Shown here in pieces: positions 11,854 through 57,606 of a DNA stretch of 64,000 nt. The DNA comes from Tistrella mobilis (GTDB taxonomy: Bacteria > Pseudomonadota > Alphaproteobacteria > Tistrellales > Tistrellaceae): assembly GCF_039634785.1 (NCBI RefSeq), contig NZ_JBBIAB010000011.1:1-64000 (forward strand), in the 5' to 3' direction. The position numbers were made by a program, and so were the translations under genes. Below the pieces are notes generated by a model. The model saw only the letters and a program-made list of their open reading frames with translations, was not told the DNA's origin and did not search any database. The first letter of the stretch is position 1; every line of letters begins with the position of its first letter.

Positions 11854-11941
11854 AAAAAAAATGCCGGCCAGGGAGTGCCTGGCCGGCAAAGTCGCGTGTG
11901 TGAGGACGAGTCGTGCGAAACGGGAATGAAACGTTTGCACG
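11854..11941 (-). ncRNA. Candidate Fur-regulated small RNA (RyhB-like in organisation)
   Basis: On the minus strand a sigma70-like promoter (TTGCGA at 11975-11970, 16-bp spacer, TATTAT at 11953-11948) predicts a start near 11941. About 50 bases later the transcript enters a perfect 10-bp GC hairpin followed by eight T residues (11861-11854), a textbook intrinsic terminator. The predicted RNA is about 85-90 nt, contains no ribosome site or credible ORF, and has CU-rich stretches (CGUCCUCACAC, CAUUCCC). A 15-bp Fur-box-like palindrome lies inside the promoter spacer. Size, Fur-type control and terminator match the layout of iron-responsive sRNAs such as RyhB; no sequence homology to RyhB is claimed. 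Expression is inferred. Confidence 0.6.
11862..11888 (-). terminator. Intrinsic terminator of the candidate small RNA
   Basis: Perfect inverted repeat TGCCGGCCAG (11862-11871) with CTGGCCGGCA (11879-11888), loop of 7 bases, followed on the minus strand by eight T (11861-11854). On the plus strand there is no T tract after the hairpin, so it serves minus-strand transcription. It could also end read-through from algH, whose stop is 230 bases upstream on that strand. Confidence 0.85.
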
Positions 11942-11947
11942 CCGTTG

Positions 11948-11975
11948 ATAATATGAGATTGAGAATGATTCGCAA
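11948..11975 (-). promoter_or_regulatory. Promoter with embedded Fur-box-like operator
   Basis: Minus-strand -35 TTGCGA and -10 TATTAT are 16 bp apart. Between and over them lies TGCGAATCATTCTCA (11974-11960), which matches the 7-1-7 Fur inverted repeat TGAtAATnATTaTCA at 11 of 14 positions. A bound repressor would block the promoter, giving transcription under iron limitation. The site also resembles boxes upstream of hemP-type genes, but no such gene is present here. Confidence 0.6.
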
Positions 11976-12123
11976 TAGTGAATCGACAGAGACCCCGAAG
12001 TTTTTTCCGACCCGTTCCTCGCCTTTCGAAAAATCAATGGGTTGCGCCCGGGCGGGCGCAGCCCTGCGGCGGGGCGGGCCGCGGCGCAACATGCCCCCGC
12101 ATCGCAACCCCGGGTGATTGCGG

Positions 12124-20949: not shown

Positions 20950-21215
20950 ACGAACCCTGTGGGAGAGCGCGCTGCGCGACACCCGGCCGGTCGACGGCCG
21001 GGAGACAGTCGAGGCAGTGCCGCCGAAGGAGCAACCGGCCCCGGTAAACTCTCAGGCACCAGGGACCGCAGGGGAATGTCACTCTGGAAAGCAGGCGGCG
21101 CGGAAGATCGCGGCGTCTCACCGAAGGGGTAAGTGCGACGGCGGCCACCGCATCCGCGGGGGCATGGCGGCGCACAATCTTTCAGGTCCGAAGACAGAGC
21201 GGGGCCATCTCCGGG
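20950..21215 (+). promoter_or_regulatory. Tandem glycine riboswitch
   Basis: Two consecutive glycine aptamers precede gcvT. The first contains GGGAGAGCG, GCCGCCGAAGGAGCAA, AAACTCTCAGGCACCAGGGA and CTCTGGAAAGC (about 20958-21091). The second contains CACCGAAGGGGTAAG and CAATCTTTCAGGTCCGAAGA followed by CAGAGCGGGG (about 21092-21205). These are the conserved cores of the class. In most bacteria the tandem form switches on the glycine cleavage operon when glycine is abundant; the gene order here fits this. About 80 bases separate the second aptamer from gcvT; the expression platform was not resolved. Confidence 0.92.
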
Positions 21216-57344: not shown

Positions 57345-57570
57345 GCGGCCTGCCGGTCATGTCACGGGCTGGTATCCGGGCTCGGAAGCCGGACCGGAGA
57401 TCCGGGCCGGGGGCCGTCCCTTCCCAGGTCTTCCGACCCAGTGGTTTCGACGGCCTTAAGCTTCCACACCGTTGCGGGGGCAGCAGCGGCTTTGCGGGGC
57501 TATGAGCCTTCCGCGTACCGCTTTCCCAATTCTCCACCCCCTCCGCCTGGATCGGGGTGGCACCACGTGC
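57345..57570 (-). promoter_or_regulatory. Cobalamin riboswitch controlling btuB
   Basis: On the minus strand the element starts with GGTGCC (57564-57559) and AGAATTGGGAAAGCGG, continues through the core TGCCCCCGCAACGGT (around 57483-57469), CCACTGGG (57444-57437), AAGACCTGGGAAGG and GGCTTCCGAGCCCGGATACC, ending near 57350. These are the conserved blocks of adenosylcobalamin riboswitches. It represses the receptor operon when cobalamin is plentiful. The expression platform is not certain: a CGGACC/GGTCCG hairpin lies 140 bases before the btuB start. Confidence 0.95.
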
Positions 57571-57577
57571 GGGCACG

Positions 57578-57606
57578 ATGCTAGCGGCCCGATCCGGCGC
57601 GCGCAA
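57578..57606 (-). promoter_or_regulatory. Predicted promoter of the btuB riboswitch transcript
   Basis: Minus strand TTGCGC (57606-57601), 17-bp spacer, TAGCAT (57583-57578). Its implied start near 57571 coincides with the 5' end of the cobalamin aptamer, which is strong positional support. Confidence 0.6.

Follow-up and report, generated by a model that had tools for sequence, protein, structure and literature searches.

Among the iron-sparing small RNAs under Fur control, RyhB of Escherichia coli and other enterobacteria is about 90 nt long, carries a Fur box across its promoter, ends at a Rho-independent terminator with a U-run, occurs in genomes encoding Hfq, and has sodB, sdh and bfr among its targets. 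E. coli RyhB has been described as pairing at iscS, which leaves iscR intact (PMC6956336). PrrF, NrrF, BrrF, FsrA and IsrR also combine Fur control with anti-Shine-Dalgarno pairing to iron-protein mRNAs and have independent sequence origins, and none of them is alphaproteobacterial. A Fur- or RirA-controlled counterpart of RyhB is reported as not found in Sinorhizobium, where a RyhB homologue was termed an open task (PMC3484140), or in Caulobacter (PMC6120978, PMC11005374), where several small RNAs increase in iron limitation and a conserved Fur box stands upstream of none of them (PMC6120978). RusT of Caulobacter crescentus is a 118-nt, Hfq-bound, iron-starvation-induced RNA from the lolA-xth locus which is controlled by NtrYX and not by Fur, with mostly outer-membrane transporters as targets, and its authors state that no small RNA is known in the Caulobacter Fur regulon (PMC11005374). 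In the open-licence literature, no experimentally shown alphaproteobacterial RyhB-like RNA and no report on a Tistrella small RNA was found, and priority is not asserted since the search was limited to such papers.

The element described here lies on the minus strand of a 64,000-nt stretch of Tistrella mobilis DNA (the window) and is predicted, with a probability of about 0.8, to encode a trans-acting, Fur-repressed, RyhB-like iron-sparing small RNA whose sequence is unrelated to RyhB. Of the features of RyhB listed above, the Fur box across the promoter, the U-run terminator and Hfq in the genome are present, the predicted length agrees, and the predicted targets likewise include sodB, bfr and an sdh gene. 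The Tistrella RNA differs from RyhB in having no RyhB-family Rfam match, in belonging to another class of bacteria, and in its sites, with sufB rather than iscS as the Fe-S operon site and sdhB as the site in the sdh operon. Fur control and anti-Shine-Dalgarno pairing, both predicted in Tistrella, would be shared with the PrrF to IsrR group, whereas the seed and genomic context are unlike those of any member; with RusT the class of origin is shared and the regulator is not. Judged by sequence features that can be tested, the element matches the functional class formed by Fur-controlled iron-sparing small RNAs; no known sequence family includes it.

The promoter consists of the -35 hexamer TTGCGA (11975-11970, minus strand) and the -10 hexamer TATTAT (11953-11948, minus strand) separated by a 16-nt spacer; both hexamers are identical in 3/3 Tistrella genomes, and the pair is the sole sigma70-like match within 2 kb (0.1 in shuffled sequence). 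The A-tract GGAAAAAACTT (11998..12008, minus strand), 5' of the -35 hexamer, may act as an UP element and is unchanged in the three Tistrella genomes amid intergenic DNA that has otherwise diverged. With a start placed 6 nt past the -10 hexamer, the predicted RNA is about 89 nt long (11854..11942, minus strand) and folds in the order of a 5' stem-loop with loop UUUCAUUCC (11912..11941), an unpaired pyrimidine-rich stretch containing the seed CUCGUCCUCAC (11900..11910), and an intrinsic terminator hairpin (11888-11862) of 11 bp with nine G-C pairs and a 5-nt loop, all on the minus strand. The terminator tail is a U8 tract (11854..11861, minus strand), read as T8 in the sequence, which is a possible Hfq site. 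The hairpin is clearly the best of five terminator-like matches in 2 kb (0.8 in shuffles), and the predicted fold of the whole RNA reaches -36.1 kcal/mol compared with -19.3 kcal/mol for shuffled sequence (z = -6.4).

This anatomy and fold are compatible with a short non-coding transcript ending at an intrinsic terminator. No credible coding sequence lies within the RNA, and coding potential was rejected; the single frame opening inside it, a GTG frame at 11940-11710, reads through the terminator and has no Shine-Dalgarno sequence. On one side the element is flanked by algH (PF02622, 2.7e-51), whose protein is 99% identical to AlgH of T. mobilis KA081020-065, and on the other by a convergent DUF1989 gene (PF09347, 7.4e-53); the terminator stands about 240 nt past the algH stop codon, on the algH strand. 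The preliminary description, made from the sequence alone, was right on each of these anatomical points, namely the promoter pair with 16-bp spacing, the perfect terminator with eight T some 85-90 nt after the start, the lack of a credible reading frame, and the position between the DUF1989 gene and algH. It was probably right on function as well, and its interpretation now has more support than the sequence alone could give.

The Fur box TGAGAATGATTCGCA, a 7-1-7 palindrome without strand at 11960..11974, overlaps the -35 hexamer and the spacer, a placement that permits repression, and its motif is common to iron-uptake promoters. It fits 13 of the 14 specified positions of the palindrome TGAGAATnATTCTCA, where 11 of 14 had been claimed before, and is identical in the three Tistrella genomes. 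Genome-wide, TGAGAATnATTCTCA with at most two mismatches occurs at 17 places versus none for a reversed control pattern, and the box of the small RNA is among the four best. Many of the 17 places precede iron-uptake or iron-storage genes; the flanking genes, named by eye from translations, include those for TonB-dependent receptors, FecI-type sigma factors, bfd-bfr and a MATE-type transporter, as well as a ZnuA-type operon, possibly one controlled by Zur. The genome encodes three Fur-family proteins, Fur (L285), an Irr-like protein labelled by eye (L286) and Zur (L287), and also an Hfq homologue. The Fur homologue is 46% identical to E. coli Fur, and its top NCBIfam match is the ferric iron uptake regulator, yet under the cut-off of that model. 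The motif enrichment and the presence of a genuine Fur homologue support the reading of the 15-mer as a Fur box, at which Fur is predicted to bind.

At G000:C7:97984-98517 (L004), bfd stands between a Fur box and a second Fur-like box, TGACAATCACTCTCA, and bfr with a site complementary to the small RNA comes next, a predicted two-layered iron control. Upstream of the ZnuA-type operon (G000:C11:90225-90289, L012-L014) lie three overlapping or neighbouring Fur/Zur-like palindromes, one of which, TTAGAATTATTCTTA, looks like an Irr-type box.

To compare the element with its surroundings, the window was aligned with T. mobilis KA081020-065 (G162) and a second Tistrella species (G001), all three being close relatives. 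In the transcript 87/89 positions are invariant, and the two variable positions are one base of the terminator loop and one base right after the stem. The promoter and Fur-box region is invariant at 45/48 positions, compared with 55/134 in the intergenic DNA from the algH stop to the promoter, 3/33 past the terminator, and 134/199 at third codon positions of algH. Pairwise identity between the genomes is 16-64% in the intergenic flanks versus 91-94% in the algH coding sequence. In G001 the DNA directly 3' of the terminator is unrelated, with the element itself intact. A near-invariant element between diverged flanks indicates a unit selected in its own right and not a by-product of algH or a neighbour. 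The preliminary description had named a loss of promoter and terminator beside conserved flanking genes as a refuting observation, and the comparison came out in its favour, with both conserved in the three genomes; the conserved pairing does not amount to covariation, since the genomes are closely related. Further on in G001, DUF1989-like sequence resumes, which marks DNA inserted directly after the terminator.

The Shine-Dalgarno regions of six genes, namely sodB, sufB, bfr, the cytochrome c' gene, the CO-dehydrogenase-like coxL and sdhB, show complementarity of 9-11 nt to CUCGUCCUCA in the central unpaired part of the RNA, and the seed is the complement of GTGAGGACGAG at the ribosome-binding sites. 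The preliminary description had noted that CU-rich unpaired stretches could pair with ribosome sites, and this proved specific, with the complement lying on the ribosome-binding sites of these six genes. Perfect complements were sought in a window of -40..+30 around 2088 called gene starts in 2.4 Mb of T. mobilis chromosome (61% of one chromosome), and a list of iron genes, drawn from E. coli before the pairing was examined, has 20 homologues in the scanned DNA. The longest complement among the 2088 starts belongs to coxL (11 nt, GUGAGGACGAG), followed by sodB (10 nt, UGAGGACGAG), sufB (10 nt, GAGGACGAGU), a small membrane protein gene (10 nt, to another part of the RNA), and the flgJ-like, bfr, cytochrome c' and Sua5-like genes (9 nt each).

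Three of these eight best complements are listed iron genes (hypergeometric P = 4e-5 for 20 listed genes in 2088 starts). Three listed genes were reached by 0/600 dinucleotide shuffles of the RNA, and by 7/600 when the anti-Shine-Dalgarno UCCUC was held fixed, so that the complementarity to iron-gene translation starts exceeds chance. Among the 256 words GAGGANNNN at gene starts, only GAGGACGAG matches three listed genes (three of its five), and its remaining two are the gene of cytochrome c' (PF01322) and coxL, the large subunit gene of a molybdenum CO-dehydrogenase-like enzyme; the gene next to coxL on its upstream side corresponds in position and size to the Fe-S small subunit and probably encodes it. 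The value for the 9-mer alone (P = 7e-6) is too generous because the sodB match was noticed before the test, whereas P = 4e-5 covers the whole unpaired region and is free of this bias. Opening the 11-nt seed, which is accessible in the predicted fold, costs 2.1 kcal/mol, and duplexes with the six leaders are predicted at -20 to -28 kcal/mol. A ranking by duplex energy alone is weaker and noisy, with three listed genes in the top 20, equalled by 1/200 and 2/200 shuffles.

The identities of the targets were confirmed by Pfam and NCBIfam, and the sdhB target (L209) has 2Fe-2S and 4Fe-4S domains. In a search for the pattern GAGGACGAG-N0-11-ATG, the same sites recur across the three Tistrella genomes. 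The second species gave directly read leaders for sodB, bfr and coxL, and the genome of the window gave them for sufB, bfr, coxL, cytochrome c' and sdhB; the other second-species sites, at sufB, cytochrome c' and sdhB, are based on an identical matching string at one place only. At G000:C32:28473-29069 and G001:C4:874997-875593 lies another Fe/Mn superoxide dismutase gene, which shares 57% identity with SodB and is a possible stand-in if SodB is shut off.

A Fur site in the promoter together with an exposed complement to iron-gene ribosome-binding sites suggests that the RNA is probably the counterpart of the iron-saving RyhB in the Tistrella lineage. When iron is plentiful, Fe-Fur on the box across the -35 hexamer and spacer would stop transcription, as judged from the position of the box, and when iron is scarce the RNA of about 89 nt would be produced. 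Its exposed CUCGUCCUCA, probably aided by Hfq at the 3' U-tract, would then pair across the Shine-Dalgarno sites of messages that encode proteins using or storing iron, and would block translation of sodB, sufB, bfr, cytochrome c', coxL, sdhB and some further genes, thereby sparing iron. From these features we infer transcription, iron control, Hfq dependence and target repression.

The position of two pairing sites on the downstream gene means that one operon could be regulated in two ways. In the genome of the window the order is Fur box, bfd (PF04324) and bfr, with the pairing site at bfr, so that Bfd would be kept and Bfr lowered; in T. mobilis, sufB with its 10-nt match lies 126 nt after iscR (g99), with a hairpin just before the site, so that IscR would be kept and SufB lowered. 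As with RyhB on iscS (PMC6956336), the site is at the Fe-S assembly gene directly behind iscR, and the arrangement would by analogy repeat the iscR-iscS logic on the SUF operon. On balance we lean towards the bolder proposal of a first alphaproteobacterial RyhB-like iron-sparing RNA under Fur control, of independent origin in Tistrella, which would split bfd from bfr and iscR from sufB. If the RNA works as predicted, the Alphaproteobacteria do have a RyhB counterpart, of other sequence origin and with the same target logic, and this would stand as a strong example of convergent evolution. With the RNA, its seed and its targets specified, the prediction can be tested, and the result suggests looking in other lineages that retain a true Fur.

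The iron-sparing role was weighed against other readings of the same element. Irr boxes have the form TTTAGAA-n3-TTCTAAA and so resemble Fur boxes, and with an Irr-like protein encoded in the genome, the box could be read by Irr, or by Fur and Irr together, which would tie an iron-responsive RNA to haem status. This is improbable, because the half-sites read TGAGAAT/ATTCGCA, a form found also at TonB-receptor and sigma-factor promoters, and not TTAGAA/TTCTAA, and the box spans the -35 hexamer and spacer, which is the position of a repressor. It is also unlikely that the RNA, though iron-regulated, has another main task such as envelope or transporter control, with the iron-gene matches as by-products of an anti-Shine-Dalgarno seed. 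The seed does include UCCUC, the complement of common Shine-Dalgarno sequences, and some matches of the 9-mer are generic since it overlaps the Shine-Dalgarno core: cysS, ubiE, addA and a DUF849 gene, with no obvious iron link, appear to bear it in all three genomes, and a pirin gene and an HD-domain gene bear it in one or two. RusT, moreover, chiefly represses outer-membrane transporters (PMC11005374). Against such by-products, however, iron genes are over-represented both relative to all 256 Shine-Dalgarno-core words and relative to the shuffles that keep UCCUC.

That no separate RNA exists, the hairpin being the algH terminator on the same strand and the promoter-like sequence a chance match, is very doubtful: from the algH stop to the promoter the intergenic DNA shows poor conservation, whereas the promoter, Fur box and RNA body are nearly invariant, including loops and unpaired parts. 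Scarcely tenable is a divergent member of the suhB/MmgR family (RF00519), the best Rfam match to an alphaproteobacterial small RNA, which covers the full length and shares the GACUUU-terminator 3' module. At 17.7 bits the match falls far short of the gathering score of 41 bits, differences extend to the promoter, the 5' half and the seed, and three tandem true members (60-68 bits) stand elsewhere in the genome of the window; membership was rejected on account of the score and these copies. The tandem copies are located at G000:C7:54432-55030 (L070, L077, L082) and G162:C1:743793-744391, with a weaker fourth copy on another replicon (G162:C4:125847; G000:C22:20662).

The distribution of the element, confined to Tistrella in the genomes searched, counts against the preferred reading, a Fur-repressed iron-sparing RNA of the Tistrella lineage. 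A covariance model of the RNA (R1) scores 120-122 bits in all three Tistrella genomes. No homologue outside Tistrella was found by BLASTN in 58 genomes or by R1 in 385 alphaproteobacterial genomes of more than 170 families, a collection that represents the order by Tistrella only, and the composite pattern of Fur box, CYYC and T6 had no proper match outside Tistrella in the 385 genomes of the class. The non-Tistrella matches were terminator hairpins or chance-like and had no proper promoter-Fur box layout, four composite-pattern matches being judged from the matched strings only. A search of the genome collection with AlgH for neighbourhood comparison returned T. mobilis only. Rfam gave no above-threshold match for the element, and the RyhB covariance model had no match in the window at the gathering threshold or in permissive scans of the element. 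A second R1 match in the genome is weak, at 31-35 bits (G000:C21:3214, G162:C1:1758170), and corresponds to a simple G+C hairpin that lacks a Fur box. Elsewhere in the window, a cobalamin riboswitch aptamer was detected at 57350-57583 (-) with 80.9 bits, and tandem glycine riboswitch aptamers at 20950-21203 (+) with 53.3 and 32.3 bits.
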